Source of the DNA: Modestobacter sp. VKM Ac-2984
Lineage (GTDB): Bacteria > Actinomycetota > Actinomycetes > Mycobacteriales > Geodermatophilaceae
NCBI RefSeq assembly: GCF_026967985.1
Contig: NZ_JAPVBJ010000005.1
Span: forward strand, 144,564 to 208,563
Reading direction: 5' to 3'
DNA: 64,000 bases
Each line of letters opens with the position of its first letter. Position 1 is the first letter of the stretch. Both the position numbers and the translations under genes were made by a program. A model generated the notes under the pieces. The model was not told the DNA's origin. It ran no database searches and was given only the letters and a program-made list of their open reading frames with translations. Below are positions 16,389-47,737 of this stretch, piece after piece.

Positions 16389-16880
16389 TCACCGGTAGTT
16401 GTCGAACTGCAGGGCGATCTCGAAGTCCTTGCTCTTCAGCAGCTGCTGGACCGCCTGCAGGTCGTCGCGCTTCTTGCCGCTGACCCGCAGCTGGTCGCCC
16501 TGGATCTGCGCCTGCACGCCCTTGGGGCCCTCGTCACGGATGGCCTTGGCGATCTCCTTGGCCTTGTCCGAGGCGATCCCCTGCTGGATCCGGGCGGAGA
16601 TCTTGTAGACCTTCCCCGAGGACTGCGGCTCGTCGGCGTCCAGCGCCTTCATCGAGATGCCCCGCTTGACCAGCTTCTCCTTGAAGACCTCGAGCGCCGC
16701 GGCCACCCGCTCCTCGGTGTCGGCCTGCAGGGCCACCGCCTCCTCGCCGGCCCAGGCGATCGTGGCGTTGACGCCGCGGAAGTCGAACCGCTGCGACAGC
16801 TCCTTGCCCGCCTGGTTCAGGGCGTTGTCGACCTCCTGCCGGTCGACCTTGCTCACCACGTCGAAGGACGCATCGGCCAT
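16389..16880 (-). CDS. yajQ: YajQ family nucleotide-binding protein (DUF520)
   Basis: 163 residues, the family's usual length, with two ferredoxin-like folds. Recognisable blocks: [20 protein letters not shown] at the start, RFDFRGV, and the C-terminal [29 protein letters not shown]. Members bind GTP/ATP, and some proteobacterial ones bind cyclic di-GMP; the role in actinobacteria is not settled. A GGAGGA sequence precedes the ATG at 16880. It is convergent with htpX and close to tRNA-Tyr on the opposite strand. Confidence 0.92.
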
Positions 16881-17098: not shown

Positions 17099-17536
17099 TC
17101 ACGCGGTCGGCGCCCGGGCGCTGGCGACCGCGGTCCGCTCCAGCGGCTCGCCGGCCAGGAACAGCCAGCCGAAGGCGATCGGCACCGAGCGGCTGCACCG
17201 CACGGTCACCTCGGCCCCGTCGGTCGCCGCCGACCACGAGTCGAGGGCGACGCCGGCGTCACCGAGCTGGTCGGCCACTGCCGCCTCGGCCGCAGCGCGG
17301 GTCAACGGCAGTTCGGTGCCCACGCCGCGGGTGTAGACGGCGGCCTCGTCGGCCTGGTTCGCCGCCGCCAGCGCCGCGCCGTCGCAGATCGACTGGACCT
17401 CCTGCTGTTCCAGGAAGGCGTCCGAGGCGGCGATCGCCCCGAAGACCATCAGCGCGCCCACCAGCCAGCAGACCAGCACGAACGGCAGGGTCGATCCGGC
17501 CTCGGGGTCGCGTGGGTCGGGCCGGCCGGTGTGCAC
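17099..17536 (-). CDS. TadE/TadG-like pilus-assembly family small membrane protein
   Basis: 145 residues from GTG 17536. The N-terminus has the pattern of TadG-like proteins: a short Arg/Asp-rich head, then E-A-G-S followed by one hydrophobic helix (LPFVLVCWLVGALMVFGAI), then an Ala-rich amphipathic stretch (QSICDGAALAAANQADEAAV) typical of these minor-pseudopilin-like proteins. The remainder is a small soluble beta-rich region. Usually such genes lie in a tad cluster with tadA/B/C and flp; none of those is nearby, so this is an orphan copy. Function is inferred only from the N-terminal signature. Confidence 0.6.
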   Translation of the reverse strand: MHTGRPDPRDPEAGSTLPFVLVCWLVGALMVFGAIAASDAFLEQQEVQSICDGAALAAANQADEAAVYTRGVGTELPLTRAAAEAAVADQLGDAGVALDSWSAATDGAEVTVRCSRSVPIAFGWLFLAGEPLERTAVASARAPTA

Positions 17537-17587
17537 GCGCGCAGCGTAGAGGTCGCCCGCACCGGTGCTCCGCCGTCGTCCACCGGT

Positions 17588-17664
17588 TGTGGACGGAGCC
17601 TGTGGACGGTGTGGACGACGGTGCCCCACCCGGCCTGCGACGCCACCGGCCCTGTGGACGACGG
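17588..17664 (+). repeat. cluster of four TGTGGACG(G/A) motifs
   Basis: Copies start at 17588, 17601, 17610 and 17653, all on the plus strand, within the 165-bp gap before the EspC-like gene. The last two share TGTGGACGACGG. They resemble, without matching, the reverse complement of the actinobacterial DnaA box (TGTGGACAA). Confidence 0.5.
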
Positions 17665-17701
17665 CTGCTGCGGACGCCGCCCGGCCGCGAGACTGCCCGG
17701 C

Positions 17702-17983
17702 ATGGTCATCGAGGTGGTCCCGGCACGGCTGTACGAGCTGGCCGGGGTGCTGGACGCCGCATCGGCCCGGGCGGCCCAGGTCGGTGCGGCCGGCGACGGT
17801 GCGGGGGTGGGTGGGCCGCTCGGCCCGGTCGTGGCCGGGTTCGGCGAGACGGTGGCGGTCGCCGGTGGCTGCCTGGCGGGCGAGCTCGCCTGGCTGCGGA
17901 GCGCCGTGACGACGGCCGCCGCTTCCTGGCAGCAGGTGGACGCCGGGCTGCTGCCCGGGTTCGGTACGGCGGTGCCCCGGTGA
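17702..17983 (+). CDS. small EspC-like (type VII secretion-associated) protein
   Basis: 93 residues from ATG 17702. The start MVIEVVPARLYELAGVLDAAS fits the ESX-1 EspC-type pattern (V-x-P-x-x-L-x-x-L-A), followed by Gly/Ala-rich sequence and a second helical segment (ELAWLRSAVTTAAASWQQVDAGL), giving a helical hairpin of about 90 residues. It overlaps the next gene as GTGA, so the two proteins are probably made together. There is no signal peptide. Assignment to the EspC/WXG100 superfamily is by pattern, not by close homology, and no ESX secretion machinery genes are in the window. Confidence 0.55.
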   Translation: MVIEVVPARLYELAGVLDAASARAAQVGAAGDGAGVGGPLGPVVAGFGETVAVAGGCLAGELAWLRSAVTTAAASWQQVDAGLLPGFGTAVPR

Positions 17984-20019
17984 GTGGGCTGCTCCCCACG
18001 CCGGTGGGGCTCCCCGACCCGCCGGGCTCCCCGGCTGCCCTGGGGGACGCCCTCGACCAGCTCGCCGCGGCCGGCTTCGCGGCGGGGACGACGGTCCACC
18101 TGCTGGGTGCGGCCACCGTCGACTCCGGCTGGCAGGGCGCCGATGCGGCGGCGCTGACCGCTGAGGTCGCCACGGCGCGGGCGGTGGCCGGGGAGCTGCA
18201 CGGTGCGCTGGCGACGGCGGCCGCCCGGCTCGGTGACCACCGCGAGCTCTGGCTGACCGTGCTGTCCCGGATCGCGGTCCTGCGCACCGATCAGCGCGAG
18301 CAGTTCGCGAGGGCCGGGTCCCGGCTCGCCGTGCTGGTGGGGCCGGCGTGGGACGGCGGTGTCCCCGGTCCGGGCCGGGACGAGGCCGCCGACCTCAGCG
18401 CCGCGGTCGCTGCCGACGACGCCGACCGGGCCGTCGAGCACCGGGCACTGCTGGACGACCTGGCCGCCGACGCCACGGCCGTCGCCGCGGTGCTCGCCGC
18501 GGTCGCCGCGCCGCTGGGTGGGCCCGCCCGCCTGGGGGACGCCGCAGGGGTCACCGCCTGGCTCGCCGGGCGGATGCCGGGGTGGGGGGACGGCGCGTTC
18601 GCCGCGCTGGGGAGGGAGGCAGCGGCGGACCTCCTCCGGCCGGGCACGGCCGAGCGGCTCGACGCTGTGGCCGCCGGTTGGTCCGGCCACGCGGCGAGCC
18701 CTGCCTTCGCAGCTGCCGTGGTGGGGCGGCTCGGCGCCGACGGCCTCCGCTGGCTGCTCACCGTGCTGGGCGCGCGGGACGGCTCCCTCGACGCGCTGGC
18801 CGACCTGCTGGCGGGAACGCTCAGCTCGGTGGCCGGTGGGGCGGCCGCAGGGAGCCCGGCCCGTCGCGCCCTGGGCGACCTGCGGCTGGCGCCGGCGGAC
18901 CCCGACGGTGCGGTCGACGTGCTGGCGGTCGGGATGGGCACGGTGCTGGGCGCCCTGGCGGGCCGGGGTGCGGCCGGGGCCTCCGCCCTCGCCGCGTCCT
19001 GGGGGCGCCAGCTCCTGGCCCGCGAGGCAGCGCAAGGGGCCGGCGCGGCGGCCCGGGTCGGCGCGTCAGCTGCCGACCCCGTGGCGGCGGCGTTGACCGT
19101 GCTGCGCCACGCCGGCGACCGGGCTGCTGCCGGCGAGCTGCTCGCCGACCCGGCCGCCTGGACGACGCTGCTGAGCCGGCCCTGGCCGGGTGGGGCCGGG
19201 GACCTGGCTGCGGTCGTCACCCTCGCCGCGGCCGGCCCGGGTGCGGCGACGGCGGCCGGGGCGGCGCTGCAGTCACTGGGCCGGGGACTGGCCCCGGACT
19301 CACCGGACAAGGTGCTCGTCGACCAGGAGACGCTCGCCCGGATCGGCACGGAGGTGAGCGGACTGGTGGCCGGACAGGTCGGCGTCGTGCTGCCGGTGCT
19401 GGAGGCGGCCGTGCGCGACGGCGGCCCGGAGGGGCACCTGGACGCGTCGACCGACGCCGCGCTGCGCGGGCTGACGCTCCTGCTCGTGGAGGAGGCCCGG
19501 AGCGAGCCGGTGGTCGCCGCCGTGCACGCCGCGCTGAGGGCCGCGGACGCACCTGTGTCGTCGTCGGCGGAGCTCGTCGGTGCCACCGTGGCGGTCCAGG
19601 AGCACGCGCAGCGGCTCCGGTACGGGCTCGCGTACAGCCAGGAGCACGAGGCGGCCATCGATCGGCAGCTGCTGTGGACGCTCGGGGTGACCGTGCCCAG
19701 CTTCTTCCTCCGCGGGCCCCGGGGGGACCCGCTCAGTGCTGGCTTGGACCTGGCAGCGATCGCGGTCGGCGCGGACGGCGAGGTGCGGATGGGACCGGAC
19801 ACCGGCCGGGTCCGCACGGCCGAGGGCGCGCAGCGGGACGCCATCGGGCTGCTGGGGGAGGAGCCGCTGGCCCCCGGCGCAGTCGGGGCGGCCGCGCGGA
19901 CCGGATTCTCACGAGTCGCCGCCGTGCTCGGCTCGCCGGGGCCTCCGGAGCCCTCGCTGTGGGACCGGCTCGACGACCTGCCCCGCGCAGAGCTCCCGGA
20001 ACCCCGTCCACCACGCTGA
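17980..20019 (+). CDS. 679-residue Ala-rich protein with WXG100-like N-terminus, possible type VII secretion substrate
   Basis: I do not recognise a named family with certainty. The first ~110 residues look like a WXG100-type helical hairpin: GSPAALGDALDQLAAAGF, then W51-Q52-G53 at the turn (DSGWQGADAAALTAEV), then a second long helix. The rest is almost entirely helical and Ala/Gly/Leu-rich, with no catalytic motif that I can name, no signal peptide and no membrane helix. GTG at 17980 overlaps the EspC-like gene stop. The pair arrangement (small helical partner plus large WXG-headed protein) resembles ESX substrate or polymorphic-toxin gene pairs, but no toxin domain or immunity gene is evident. 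Confidence 0.5.
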   Translation: MSGLLPTPVGLPDPPGSPAALGDALDQLAAAGFAAGTTVHLLGAATVDSGWQGADAAALTAEVATARAVAGELHGALATAAARLGDHRELWLTVLSRIAVLRTDQREQFARAGSRLAVLVGPAWDGGVPGPGRDEAADLSAAVAADDADRAVEHRALLDDLAADATAVAAVLAAVAAPLGGPARLGDAAGVTAWLAGRMPGWGDGAFAALGREAAADLLRPGTAERLDAVAAGWSGHAASPAFAAAVVGRLGADGLRWLLTVLGARDGSLDALADLLAGTLSSVAGGAAAGSPARRALGDLRLAPADPDGAVDVLAVGMGTVLGALAGRGAAGASALAASWGRQLLAREAAQGAGAAARVGASAADPVAAALTVLRHAGDRAAAGELLADPAAWTTLLSRPWPGGAGDLAAVVTLAAAGPGAATAAGAALQSLGRGLAPDSPDKVLVDQETLARIGTEVSGLVAGQVGVVLPVLEAAVRDGGPEGHLDASTDAALRGLTLLLVEEARSEPVVAAVHAALRAADAPVSSSAELVGATVAVQEHAQRLRYGLAYSQEHEAAIDRQLLWTLGVTVPSFFLRGPRGDPLSAGLDLAAIAVGADGEVRMGPDTGRVRTAEGAQRDAIGLLGEEPLAPGAVGAAARTGFSRVAAVLGSPGPPEPSLWDRLDDLPRAELPEPRPPR

Positions 20020-20448
20020 CACCCGTTCGGGGGCCACCCAAATGTGACTCTGAGCAGATCGTTCATCACTCAAAGTGGCGACACAACGAAGATCATTAGC
20101 CCGGTCGTGTTGCATCTTGCGCGTGTGGGTGACCGGCTGCAGTCTCTTCATTGCGGTCTGTGCCGGACGACGCTCTGCCCCCGCGTGGGCGGCTGCCGCG
20201 ATCCCCGAGTCCTTCCGTGCCCTCAGGAGACGTCATGTCCAGCACCGCCACGCCCGCTGTCGTCCGTTCCGCCGCCGCCGACCGCGGCTGGCGTTGGTCT
20301 CGCGGGTGGCGCTGGAGTCGCTGAGCGGGTGACCTGACCGGTCCGGGACTCGCCCGGGACGACGTGCTCCATCGGGTGAGCCTGCTACCCCGGGTCGGGA
20401 GCCGCTGTTACCTTCGATCGACACCGCCTCCCGACAGACGGGCTCACG
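20020..20448. other. 429-bp gap before the GGDEF-EAL gene
   Basis: The first ~120 bp (20040-20160) are visibly lower in GC than the surroundings and look regulatory. A short peptide ORF with a good SD sits at 20235. A hairpin GTCCGGG/CCCGGGAC with one bulge lies at 20341-20360, and a -10-like TACCTT at 20409-20414 lies 40 bp before the proposed start. No riboswitch family is recognisable. Confidence 0.5.
20235..20324 (+). CDS. candidate 29-residue Trp/Arg-rich peptide or leader ORF
   Basis: ATG at 20235 with SD AGGAG five bases upstream and TGA at 20322-20324. The C-terminus is RGWRWSRGWRWSR, an internal repeat with four Trp in eleven residues. Trp is rare in random high-GC frames of this kind, and the SD is among the clearest in the region. 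It could be a Trp-sensing leader peptide, a small cationic peptide, or chance. It lies 125 bp upstream of the membrane GGDEF-EAL gene on the same strand, with a hairpin between them. Confidence 0.45.
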   Translation: MSSTATPAVVRSAAADRGWRWSRGWRWSR

Positions 20449-22998
20449 TTGGCCGAGTCCTCGGTACGCCCGGCCGCGGAGATCACGCGGCCCGCACAAC
20501 TCCGACGCCCGGAGATGATCTTCGCTGTTGCTTGCGCAACGGCGATCACACTGGGTGCGTTGACGCTGCCGCATGCCTGGACGACTCCGCCGGTGTGGGC
20601 GGTTCTGGCACTCTTCGCTGCCTTCCTGCTCACCGAGTCGGTTCAGCTGGACATCGAGTTCCGGCGGCAGACCTTCTCGGTGTCCCCCTCGGAGGTCGCC
20701 CTTCTCGTGGGCTTGGTCGAGGTCGGCGGCGTCTGGACGGCCGTCGCCCGGGTCGGGGCCGTGGCGGTCGTCCTGGCGCGTCAGTCCCTGCCGTTGCCGA
20801 AGATCGGGTTCAACCTCTCCCTCGCTGTGGTGGAGGTCTGCACCGCGTTGTTGGTGCTCTCCTTGCTGCCGCAGTTGGACCTCGATGAACCACTGAGCTG
20901 GCTGTTCCTGGCGTTCGCCCTGGTGAGTGCGACGGTCGTCGGGATGCTGCTCACCTGCCTGGCGATATCCCTGGCTGGCGGCTTTCCTGGCTGGGGGCTC
21001 TTGCTGGGCATGGTGCCGGCGCTCGCCGTGGCGCCGCTGAGCGTCGTCGTCGGCGTGGTCGCGCTGTTGCTGACTCGGCAGACCCCGTGGGGGTGGGCGC
21101 TGATCGTGCCGTTGGTGCTGGGTGTGGTGGCGATCTTCCGGCAGGGGACCCGGGCGCAGCGCGACCGTCGGACGGTCCAGCAGGTCTACGACTTCGCACG
21201 GCGAGTCGAACTCGTGAGCCCGGACGAGGATGGCACCCGAGACATCGTTCGAGCGGTACGGGAGCTGCTCAACGCCAACCGGGTGGCGCTGTGGCTACCG
21301 CCGTACCTGGACGAGGGTCCCCAGTTGGTCGTCGACGCCGCCGATGGGGACGTCGCTTGGTATGACGGGCCGGGCGATCCAGACGACCTGATCCGTCGTC
21401 GCGCTCTCGCCGCCGAGGCCAGCGGCCCCCTCCTGCTGTCGGCGGTACGGGCGGACCCCCAGGAGTTGGTCGCACTCAACAGGCGCGGTGCACGTGAGGT
21501 GCTCGGCGCACCGGTGGTCACGGCAGCCGGTGAGCCCGGGTACCTCGAGGTCTGTGACCGGCGCAGCGACGTGGTGACCTTCGCCGACGGGGACCGCAGT
21601 GCGCTGGAGTCGATGTTGACCCACGTCAACGCCGCGATCCGCCAGCAACAGCTGCTCAGTCAGATCCGGCACGACGGCGACCACGACCGGCTGACCGGGC
21701 TGCCCAACCGGCAGCGCCTGGGCGGGGAGATCGACGCGCTCCTGCTGGCCGAGCCCGCCACCGCCCGCGCGGGGCTGGTGCTCGCAGCCCTGGAGGGCTA
21801 CACCGACGTCACAGACACCCTCGGGCACGCCGCCAGCGACGAGCTGCTCCTGGTCACCGCCGGGCTGCTCCGCGAGCACGCGCCGCCGCAGGCCGTCGTC
21901 GCCCGGATGGAGGGCGGCCAGTTCGCCGTCCTGCTGCCCGGTCTGTCCTTGGCCGCCACCGAGCGGGCCGCCCGCCGGCTGCGGGAGGCCGCCTCCACCC
22001 GCGCCCGGGTCGCCGGGCTCGACCTGGAGGTCGGGCTGACCATCGGGGTGGCCGCGGCGCCGGTCCACGGGTCGGAGTCCGGCACGCTGATCCAGCGGGC
22101 CGACGTCGCGCTGCTCGCGGCACAGGGCTCCGGGGGAGTGGCGACCTACCACCCGGTCCTGGACCAGCAGAGCCTGCGCCGCCTCCAGTTGGGCGCCGAG
22201 CTGGAGACCGCGATCTCCGACGGGCAGATCTCGGTGGTCTTCCAGCCGATCGTGGACACCCGCACCGCCGACATCGTCTCGGTGGAGACGCTCGTGCGCT
22301 GGGCACACCCCCGCTACGGGGACATCTCGCCGGACGACTTCATCAGCCTGGCCGAGCAGATCGGCCGCATCGGCCTGCTCACCGACCACGTGCTGGACCG
22401 TGCGCTGGACCGCTGCCGGCGGTGGTTGGACCAGGACATCGCGCTGTCGGTCGCGGTCAACCTCTCCGCCCACTGCCTCGCAGAGCCGGACATCGTCGAC
22501 CGGGTCCGTCGCGCGCTGCGCCGCCACGGTGTCCCGGGTGAACTGCTGACCCTGGAGCTCACCGAGGGCAGCGTCGTCGACGACACGGTGCGCAACAGCA
22601 CGGTGCTGGCCGACCTGCACGCGTTGGGCCTGCGGCTGTCCATGGACGACTTCGGCACCGGTTACTCCTCGCTGTCCCAGCTGCGGCTGCTGCCGATCGA
22701 CGAGCTGAAGATCGACAAGTCCTTCGTGCTGGGCATGTCGACGAGCTCGAACGAGTCCTTCATCGCCCGGTCGATCGTGGAGCTGGCGCACAACCTGGGG
22801 TTGCGCGTGGTCGCCGAGGGCGTCGAGGACGAGATGACCCGGGACCTGCTGACCCAGATGGGCTGCGACAAGCTGCAGGGCTTCCTGGTCAGCCGGCCGC
22901 TGCCCGAGGACCGGCTGGAGGGCTGGCTGCTGGCCCGCACCGGCGTCCGCGCCGCCGCGCCGGGGGCCACCCACCGGCGGCTGTTCGTCCGGACCTGA
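20449..22998 (+). CDS. membrane-bound GGDEF-EAL protein, probable cyclic-di-GMP phosphodiesterase
   Basis: 849 residues from TTG 20449; ATG 20515 is an alternative that removes 22 residues. Residues ~24-230 contain about seven hydrophobic helices (MASE-like sensor), ~245-395 a GAF-like segment, ~405-565 a GGDEF domain and ~575-830 an EAL domain. The GGDEF signature is degenerate (EGGQF at 488-492), so cyclase activity is unlikely. The EAL motif reads ETL (613-615), but the catalytic set looks intact: Glu613, Asn671 (NLSA), ELTE (703-706), MDDFGTGYSSL (732-742), KIDKSF, VAEGVE (Glu790) and Gln810. It should therefore hydrolyse cyclic di-GMP, perhaps tuned by its membrane and GAF parts. It stands alone. 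Confidence 0.88.
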   Translation: MAESSVRPAAEITRPAQLRRPEMIFAVACATAITLGALTLPHAWTTPPVWAVLALFAAFLLTESVQLDIEFRRQTFSVSPSEVALLVGLVEVGGVWTAVARVGAVAVVLARQSLPLPKIGFNLSLAVVEVCTALLVLSLLPQLDLDEPLSWLFLAFALVSATVVGMLLTCLAISLAGGFPGWGLLLGMVPALAVAPLSVVVGVVALLLTRQTPWGWALIVPLVLGVVAIFRQGTRAQRDRRTVQQVYDFARRVELVSPDEDGTRDIVRAVRELLNANRVALWLPPYLDEGPQLVVDAADGDVAWYDGPGDPDDLIRRRALAAEASGPLLLSAVRADPQELVALNRRGAREVLGAPVVTAAGEPGYLEVCDRRSDVVTFADGDRSALESMLTHVNAAIRQQQLLSQIRHDGDHDRLTGLPNRQRLGGEIDALLLAEPATARAGLVLAALEGYTDVTDTLGHAASDELLLVTAGLLREHAPPQAVVARMEGGQFAVLLPGLSLAATERAARRLREAASTRARVAGLDLEVGLTIGVAAAPVHGSESGTLIQRADVALLAAQGSGGVATYHPVLDQQSLRRLQLGAELETAISDGQISVVFQPIVDTRTADIVSVETLVRWAHPRYGDISPDDFISLAEQIGRIGLLTDHVLDRALDRCRRWLDQDIALSVAVNLSAHCLAEPDIVDRVRRALRRHGVPGELLTLELTEGSVVDDTVRNSTVLADLHALGLRLSMDDFGTGYSSLSQLRLLPIDELKIDKSFVLGMSTSSNESFIARSIVELAHNLGLRVVAEGVEDEMTRDLLTQMGCDKLQGFLVSRPLPEDRLEGWLLARTGVRAAAPGATHRRLFVRT

Positions 22999-46952: not shown

Positions 46953-47737
46953 CCACATCGACATCCGCTGGCGTGACCGACACCCGGTCCGACCGGCAGG
47001 TCGACGTCCGGACGCCGGCGGGGGAGACCTCCGGCAGCGTCACGCTGCCCGGCGAGCTCTTCGACGCCCCGGCCAACGTCTCGCTGCTGCACCAGGTCGT
47101 CGTGGCCCAGCTGGCCGCGGCCCGCCAGGGCACGCACTCGACCAAGACGCGCGCCCAGGTCAGCGGCACCGGCGCCAAGCCGTACCGCCAGAAGGGCACC
47201 GGTCGTGCCCGTCAGGGTTCGCTGCGCTCGCCGCAGTTCACCGGCGGTGGCATCTCGCACGGCCCGCAGCCGCGCAACTACGAGCAGAAGACGCCCAAGA
47301 AGATGAAGGCCGCCGCCCTGCGCGGTGCCCTCTCCGACCGGGCTCGGGACGGCCGCGTGCACGTCGTCTCGGCGTTCGTCGAGGGGGACGCCCCCTCGAC
47401 GAAGGCCGCGCTGAAGGTCCTGGACGCGATCAGCACCGCCAAGCGCGTGCTGGTCGTCCTCGACCGGGACGACGTCCTCAACTGGGTGAGCCTGCGCAAC
47501 GTGCCGCGGGTCCACCTGATCGAGGCCGGTCAGCTCAACACCTACGACGTGCTGGTGTCCGACGAGGTCGTCTTCACCGAGACCGCGCTGGACGAGTACG
47601 TCACCGGCCCGGCCCGCGGCGGCAAGGGCGCGGCCTCCTCGGCCGAGCTCCCCGACCTGGAGACGCACGAGATCGACGGCGACGTGCCCTCGATCGCGCC
47701 GGCCACCACGACCGACACGACCGAGGAGAAGGCATGA
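46949..47737 (+). CDS. rplD: 50S ribosomal protein L4
   Basis: 262 residues from GTG 46949. L4 lines the exit tunnel and represses the S10 operon in some bacteria. Core motifs: [59 protein letters not shown] and [26 protein letters not shown]. It has an N-terminal extension of ~30 residues and an acidic C-terminal tail of ~30 residues that are not part of the E. coli protein. It overlaps rplC upstream and rplW downstream (ATGA). Confidence 0.98.

Follow-up and report, generated by a model that had tools for sequence, protein, structure and literature searches.

A hypervariable hexapeptide-repeat gene beside a GAF-GGDEF-EAL membrane protein in Modestobacter: a possible pheromone precursor and its putative S-component-like receptor

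In Trp-operon leaders, a short Trp-rich open reading frame (ORF) lies ahead of a hairpin, and in fungal pheromone precursors of the alpha-factor type a short peptide is repeated in several similar copies. For the staphylococcal agr system, a hypervariable region in agrB, agrD and agrC has been described, together with allelic groups (PMC10482373). Receptors with S-component-like domains are known, and such domains have been reported with GAF, GGDEF and EAL domains; the 5TMR/LytS kinases are described as almost restricted, among Gram-positive bacteria, to Bacillota (PMC11109136). In the main text of a review on c-di-GMP sensors, the word "peptide" occurs once, for a possible ligand of periplasmic-binding domains (PMC8846402).

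The locus described here lies in a 64,000-nucleotide stretch of DNA from Modestobacter sp. VKM Ac-2984, analysed as a whole and referred to as the window, and it can be compared with each of these systems. Similarly to Trp-operon leaders, it has a short Trp-rich ORF before a hairpin; however, there is no Trp gene downstream, a -10-like motif lies behind the ORF, and the non-Trp residues of the repeated units are identical too. As in alpha-factor precursors, like copies within one precursor change together between species, although here in bacteria and in main-clade peptides lacking a signal-peptide-like stretch. The likeness to agr (PMC10482373) is that a small peptide gene adjoins a membrane protein, that a single hypervariable region spans the peptide and the sensor half, and that there are allelic groups; here, too, a peptide gene and a membrane domain, the latter a putative receptor, share one hypervariable, exchanged region. 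In contrast to agr, the partner is a GAF-GGDEF-EAL protein with no histidine kinase according to Pfam, and the peptide is a tandem repeat. A search for AgrB (PF04647) gave no match in the strain's own genome, with a control that matched 1 of 14 genomes, below the cut-off. Finally, a predicted S-component-like domain fused to GAF, GGDEF and EAL domains recalls the S-component-fold receptors of the 5TMR/LytS group (PF07694; PMC11109136), but PF07694 (5TMR_LYT) was absent from the Pfam matches of the enzyme at E<=1, and the domain is hypervariable and adjoins a peptide gene.

The small ORF (positions 20235 to 20324, forward strand) encodes the 29-residue peptide MSSTATPAVVRSAAADRGWRWSRGWRWSR, followed by a stop codon. 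A preliminary description of this DNA had pointed to a Shine-Dalgarno (SD) sequence and to a cluster of Trp codons arranged as a duplicated W-R-W-S-R unit. Indeed, AGGAG ends five bases 5' of the ATG, and four Trp stand among the last eleven residues of the 29-codon ORF. The Trp-rich duplication is likewise present, but comparison with relatives gives RGWRWS as the recurring unit, found twice and followed by an Arg, and not WRWSR. The repeat array thus read occupies positions 20283 to 20321, with unit 1 at 20283-20300, unit 2 at 20301-20318 and the trailing Arg at 20319-20321.

A search with the first 397 residues of the downstream enzyme covered 57 family genomes, of which 47 orthologous loci were used; ten genomes with no match or a distant one were left out (G019, G027, G029, G031, G037, G038, G044, G045, G050 and G051). 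In all 47 loci, a small ORF with an SD sequence stands 5' of the orthologous GGDEF-EAL gene (46 ATG and one GTG start codons), the SD count being partly circular, as starts were chosen using the SD as a criterion. Since these loci were picked by orthology of the next gene, the presence of the small ORF in every one of them goes beyond chance; its proposed link to the GGDEF-EAL gene is borne out in 47/47 orthologous loci, and the ORF at 20235-20324 is confirmed as a genuine peptide gene. At least two tandem hexapeptides, mostly of the form R-x-x-[K/R]-W-x, are encoded in 46/47 loci, and 46 of the 47 small ORFs have at least two Trp near the C-terminus, the exception (G030) having one degenerate unit. 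Every listed unit of the 47 loci contains Trp, apart from the first unit of G013. Outside Modestobacter, arrays are mostly longer (RGASWS and RGAKWA five times, RTNKWT and RGNRWS four times, RGHKWS three times), two-unit arrays also occur, and Trp is found only at every sixth residue in most arrays. We also assembled a set of 64 ORFs, composed of the 47 loci and 17 more that were drawn from 30 loci with a conserved 5' element (see below), provided that they contained two R...W units and did not duplicate an ORF included before. Among the last units of these 64 ORFs, 63 have Arg at position 1 and 60 have Lys or Arg at position 4, Trp at position 5 being given by construction, as the units were located by their Trp. 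The peptides are 20 to 42 residues long, with 43 different last units; no signal-peptide-like stretch was found among the 64 main-clade peptides, and the peptides submitted to Pfam and NCBIfam had no match above the curated cut-off.

We then analyzed how the units differ within arrays. In 120 comparisons of neighbouring units, taken from 63 arrays, the protein sequence was identical in 110 and the DNA sequence in 16. Codon differences amounted to 191 synonymous versus 12 nonsynonymous, the neutral site ratio for this comparison being 3.36 nonsynonymous per synonymous. Eight of the 12 nonsynonymous differences fall at position 1, namely in seven first units at the array edge that lack Arg and in G013, whose units were read in the wrong register (SGRPWK in place of RPWKWG), a shift that inflates the nonsynonymous count and depresses match scores. 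This phase error touches the unit-selection, species-pair, distance and identity-bin comparisons, and the unit was entered by hand for the parsimony counts. The frame and Ka/Ks-type constraint that the preliminary description had asked about favours translation; by this computation, the synonymous excess between adjacent units shows that the small-ORF peptide is translated and under selection. Between related species, counts were made over 340 species pairs that have like units and are not independent of one another: residue changes extended to every unit at 548 positions and to a subset of units at 76, and synonymous-only differences extended to every unit at 156 positions and to a subset at 453. 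Moreover, the position-6 Ser codons of the window are TCT and AGT, which belong to different codon families; G016 likewise pairs a TCT unit with an AGT/AGC unit, and the families are mixed in G040 and in locus L134 too. With such mixed Ser codons, copying of one unit over another is not an easy source of the likeness, while selection for like units is.

Upstream of the small ORF, the 47-locus alignment revealed a family-specific conserved 5' element (20153-20200, forward strand; GCGGTC...GCTCTGCCCCCGCG...), situated between the likely promoter and the ORF. Its exact pattern was present in 54/63 family genomes and in 2/285 other genomes sampled within the order, with the backward-read control matching 7 of the same 285 genomes. 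A scan of named genomes gave, among the matches listed, 80 loci of 118 stretches, many in Geodermatophilaceae (Modestobacter, Blastococcus, Geodermatophilus, Klenkia) and others in scattered unrelated taxa. Two loci hold a second copy of the element: in L140 (G334), at reverse-complement position 1719, it precedes a different small ORF (MPKKTRQSS...) with a hydrophobic segment, and in L141 (G330), at reverse-complement position 1845, no repeat ORF was found. In G018 and G030, the leader query gave additional weak matches, set aside as low-complexity sequence. Rfam had no match in the leader, and the whole window yielded tRNAs only. The RNAalifold consensus of 63 leaders contained a single short helix, which is nearly invariant and consequently offers no evidence of covariation; a pairing drawn by eye between GACGC in the element and GCGUC before the start codon was dropped, as the changes seen in the 47-locus alignment are not compensated.

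The spacer behind the ORF (20325-20390, forward strand) holds a terminator-like hairpin in many relatives and a weak one in the window, according to hairpin scans. A hairpin can be formed near 20341-20360, where a bulged one was previously proposed; however, the strongest local hairpin behind the ORF of the window does not exceed dinucleotide shuffles (z 0.2). In relatives, the hairpin 3' of the ORF has a median z of -3.7 and beats all 40 shuffles in 30/47 loci; a strong hairpin is also absent in G005, G007, G010, G012, G049 and some other relatives. Closer to the GGDEF-EAL gene, alignment and a pattern count identified an extended -10-like motif, TGTTACCTT (20406-20414, forward strand). The pattern TG[TC]TANNNT occurs within 75 bases of the aligned enzyme start in 47/47 loci and in 0/562 control windows within the gene, a lenient control, as it consists of GC-rich coding DNA. 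Given the 5' element ahead of it, the frequent hairpin behind it and the -10-like motif before the enzyme gene, the small ORF is likely transcribed as a gene of its own, with a separate promoter predicted for the enzyme gene; from the -10-like motifs, transcript starts are predicted near 20152 and 20421. In addition, 37 bases 3' of the ORF (20349-20385) are 86% identical to positions 47459-47495, within DNA that we take to be rplD; the match recurs in several relatives at that gene's place and may be due to chance.

The gene that follows (20449-22998, forward strand) encodes, by Pfam and alignment, a GAF-GGDEF-EAL protein with an N-terminal membrane domain, and the GAF, GGDEF and EAL domains all match Pfam over the cut-off. 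The window protein has RMEGGQF as a degenerate GGDEF motif and ETLVRW as a retained EAL motif; the GGDEF motif is likewise degenerate in 46/46 aligned proteins, and the EAL motif reads ETL in all 29 of the 46 that reach it, the other 17 stretches stopping earlier. This combination of a degenerate GGDEF motif with a retained EAL motif indicates that the protein is probably a c-di-GMP phosphodiesterase. The hypervariable membrane domain (20488-21183, forward strand) has a predicted S-component-like fold, as judged by AlphaFold2, Foldseek and VIA-align. The AlphaFold2 model, based on 45 sequences, has a mean pLDDT of 83.7 over the first 250 residues. Foldseek ranks 1-11 were ECF transporter entries, which we take, partly from knowledge of the entries, to be ten S-components and one CbiM; TmRibU came first (probability 1.00, E 0.0086), and no match at E<=0.001 was obtained for the membrane-domain model. 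VIA-align ranks 1-22 were also ECF entries (Z 12.7 to 8.8), followed by Lnt at 8.8 and below, and such Foldseek and VIA-align values can arise by chance for helical membrane proteins and helical bundles. The domain is thus predicted to resemble ECF S-components, with weak E-values.

Identity, dS and trees together delimit a hypervariable block (20250-21640, forward strand) that comprises the small ORF, the spacer and the membrane domain, and fades through the GAF domain. In the upstream M48 peptidase gene (HtpX-like), the window is close to G001, G008, G013, G018 and G021 (99%) and further from G016 (96%). Yet, over the first 397 residues of the enzyme, G016 is the closer one at 85% identity, with 77-78% for G018 and G021 and only 61-63% for G001, G008 and G013; the window and G016 also carry the same repeat. 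When compared to G001, identity is about 92% in the upstream gene and 87% in the promoter and element, falls sharply at the ORF (68% and 59.5% in its two parts), remains low in the spacer (54%) and membrane domain (63%), and recovers within the GAF domain (77%) to reach 95.6% in GGDEF and 96.7% in EAL; the rpmG-like gene is 99% identical. In the same comparison, dS is 0.83 in the membrane domain, 0.77 in GAF, 0.14 in GGDEF and 0.12 in EAL, with the divergent block DNA being hard to align and its dS near saturation. The raised dS is what replacement by old alleles would produce; fast protein change alone would come without such a rise. In 16 close Modestobacter pairs whose membrane domains diverge, nucleotide identity averages 0.87 over the promoter and 5' element and 0.95 over GGDEF, against 0.65 for the ORF, 0.56 for the spacer and 0.64 for the membrane domain. 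These belong to 20 Modestobacter pairs with a GGDEF nucleotide identity of at least 0.93: the 16 have a membrane-domain identity below 0.75 and a shared unit in 0/16, two pairs lie at 0.75-0.85 without a shared unit, and the two at 0.85 or above both share one. Moreover, dS was higher in the membrane domain than in GGDEF in 210/210 Modestobacter pairs and in 38/39 within-genus pairs of five other genera, and the median membrane-domain dN within Modestobacter was 0.36.

Trees were built for 13 species of one genus, Modestobacter. For the membrane domain, the window and G016 form a clade (support 100/99); AU tests reject this clade in the catalytic part (p-AU 0.0008) and in the downstream genes (3.6e-6), and the membrane domain in turn rejects a clade uniting the six close species (2.4e-5). 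The tested groups were picked after viewing the data. As the membrane-domain tree conflicts with the catalytic and downstream trees, these computations show that the small ORF and the membrane domain form, in Modestobacter, one hypervariable block that appears to have been exchanged between species. Two further features were observed in the DNA upstream. An 835-residue ORF (17512-20019) without a Pfam match is, in its last third, 90% identical in G001 and less than 55% identical in many other Modestobacter loci. A DUF520 (YajQ) gene lies a few kb upstream on the minus strand (16389-16880); this family is said to bind c-di-GMP.

The type of repeat was then placed on the same trees. Seven repeat types call for at least six changes, and six suffice on the membrane-domain tree; the catalytic, downstream and upstream trees each need nine. 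By position, the membrane-domain and the other trees require 2 versus 3 changes at position 2, 1 versus 4 at position 4 and 3 versus 6 at position 6, where the N/S versus G/T class changes 1 versus 5 times. Hence, the repeat type follows the membrane-domain tree more closely than it does the trees of the flanking genes. Among within-genus pairs with a GGDEF identity of at least 0.93, the same unit was found in 0/87 pairs with a membrane-domain identity below 0.65, 2/13 at 0.65-0.75, 1/3 at 0.75-0.85 and 4/4 at 0.85 or above, so that the match is graded and not strictly one to one. In partial Mantel tests, which correct for shared ancestry only partly, unit distance correlated with membrane-domain distance once catalytic and GAF distances were removed (r 0.22, p 0.0005; 46 species, after G011 was dropped), and p was 0.62 for GAF and 0.17 for catalytic distance with the others removed. 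No recombinant separating the ORF from the membrane domain was seen among the loci compared.

Trp repeats also occur beside more distant relatives of the enzyme. In G044, MSRNGRWGRNGRWGRNGRWGRS, with RNGRWG three times, stands 5' of its relative of the GGDEF-EAL gene, and in L300 (G031) and L298 (G038), from two divergent genera, a longer protein with a hydrophobic N-terminus and GVSWG/GVSWN repeats is encoded upstream of the GGDEF-EAL gene. AAWNG/TAWNG repeats were found at contig ends in G045 and G051. The G031 repeat protein had a third, weaker match in G003, and that of G038 a sub-cut-off match to PhrC_PhrF (E 0.1), to which no weight was given. The loci of G044, G031 and G038 hint that Trp repeats adjoining the enzyme may be old and that repeats may be exported. 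No repeat small ORF was present in the upstream stretches of G050 and G029, one of which has only 123 bases. As for repeats elsewhere, a three-unit DNA pattern, which misses two-unit arrays such as that of the window, matched 48/396 genomes of the phylum, and its backward control also matched many genomes. The matches listed were read as low-complexity repeats, and two readable as R..[RS]W are situated in long open frames. A two-unit pattern in 112 family genomes gave, among the matches listed, about as many as its control, and is therefore uninformative. Around relatives of the GGDEF-EAL gene in other families, 15 upstream stretches lacked such a small ORF under a Trp-spacing filter; a long frame in G081 that passed the filter was taken as noise.

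Different explanations can be considered for this arrangement, the chief rivals to a peptide-receptor pair being hitch-hiking of the ORF and a peptide that binds c-di-GMP. The membrane domain alone might be diversifying, in response to phage, bacteriocin or an unrelated ligand, with the ORF as an independent neighbour carried along. Linkage by itself would make the ORF and membrane-domain trees agree, so the same match is expected here, and the high membrane-domain dN is in agreement with this possibility. Nevertheless, the block starts, in the pairs scanned, at the ORF instead of in the spacer, which lies closer to the membrane domain; the repeat diversifies as a coordinated unit, and a Trp-repeat protein stands at the same place in divergent genera; on average, identity is also restored in the promoter and 5' element, although their own constraint may hold that region up. 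Overall, we regard hitch-hiking as unlikely, while giving it appreciable weight. Another explanation would be that an Arg/Trp peptide in the cytoplasm buffers the signal of its neighbour by binding c-di-GMP or a different nucleotide. Binding of c-di-GMP has been described for designed peptides that combine several cationic and aromatic residues (PMC9062693), and the units found here have Arg, usually Lys or Arg at a further position, and Trp, in peptides whose main-clade members are devoid of a signal-peptide-like stretch. A general binder, however, would need neither species-specific residues that are identical across units nor exchange together with a membrane domain, which makes this explanation improbable.

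Similarly low weight is given to a RiPP multi-core precursor or a bacteriocin, with the membrane domain as an immunity or sensor partner. Repeated cores, a cationic and Trp-rich sequence, and alleles paired with a membrane protein are what such a system would display; yet no modification enzyme was found among the four neighbouring proteins examined, database matches above the cut-offs are lacking for the submitted peptides, and the fused GGDEF-EAL output points to signalling. The preliminary description had raised the possibility of a leader that senses Trp, in which the GGDEF-EAL gene would be controlled by attenuation through the hairpin 3' of the ORF (an Arg-sensing version can be envisaged as well). 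The nearly universal Trp of the units and the strong hairpin of many relatives would suit it. The analysis does not support it: the conserved extended -10 motif lies between the ORF and the gene, and the residues flanking the Trp, needless for Trp sensing, are kept identical between units, which renders a Trp attenuator unlikely. Moreover, the window hairpin is not significant, no antiterminator was noticed incidentally in the hairpin scans, the nine folded leaders or the alignment of 63 leaders, the Trp spacing of most arrays outside Modestobacter is wide, the downstream gene is not one of Trp metabolism, and the exchange together with the membrane domain would be left unexplained. Hence, we consider attenuation very improbable.

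Based on these results, we give about even chances to the adjacent ORF and membrane domain being a cognate peptide-receptor pair that controls the probable c-di-GMP phosphodiesterase. The small gene, likely from its own transcript, would give rise to a cationic peptide of near-identical repeats, (R-x-x-[K/R]-W-x)n, and this peptide, or a hexapeptide cut from it, would be the ligand of the adjacent GAF-GGDEF-EAL membrane protein. The S-component-like N-terminal domain would act as the receptor, and ligand binding would set the c-di-GMP phosphodiesterase activity. Peptide and receptor domain would diversify jointly and be swapped as a single allelic cassette, with little change in the catalytic half. 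The interaction between peptide and membrane domain, together with processing, export and signalling via c-di-GMP, are inferred steps of this proposal, and neither an exporter nor a processing enzyme was identified among the four neighbouring proteins examined. More tentatively, the small gene could encode a multi-copy hexapeptide pheromone precursor, with an S-component-fold receptor fused to a c-di-GMP phosphodiesterase and dozens of exchanged allelic specificities. In the literature, judged mainly by abstract openings, no publication was recognised as describing such a peptide pherotype system in Actinomycetota.

Apart from any role in signalling, the small ORF is a clear case of repeats that stay alike in protein while their DNA drifts. 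Actinobacteria of the Geodermatophilaceae type are known from soil and rock. If the proposed pair is real, peptide signalling in actinobacteria would be tied to c-di-GMP in one step, without a kinase, and S-component-fold receptors would gain a class of ligands. Moreover, the variety of last units among the 64 ORFs would then represent a natural set of matched peptide-receptor alleles with which specificity could be studied.
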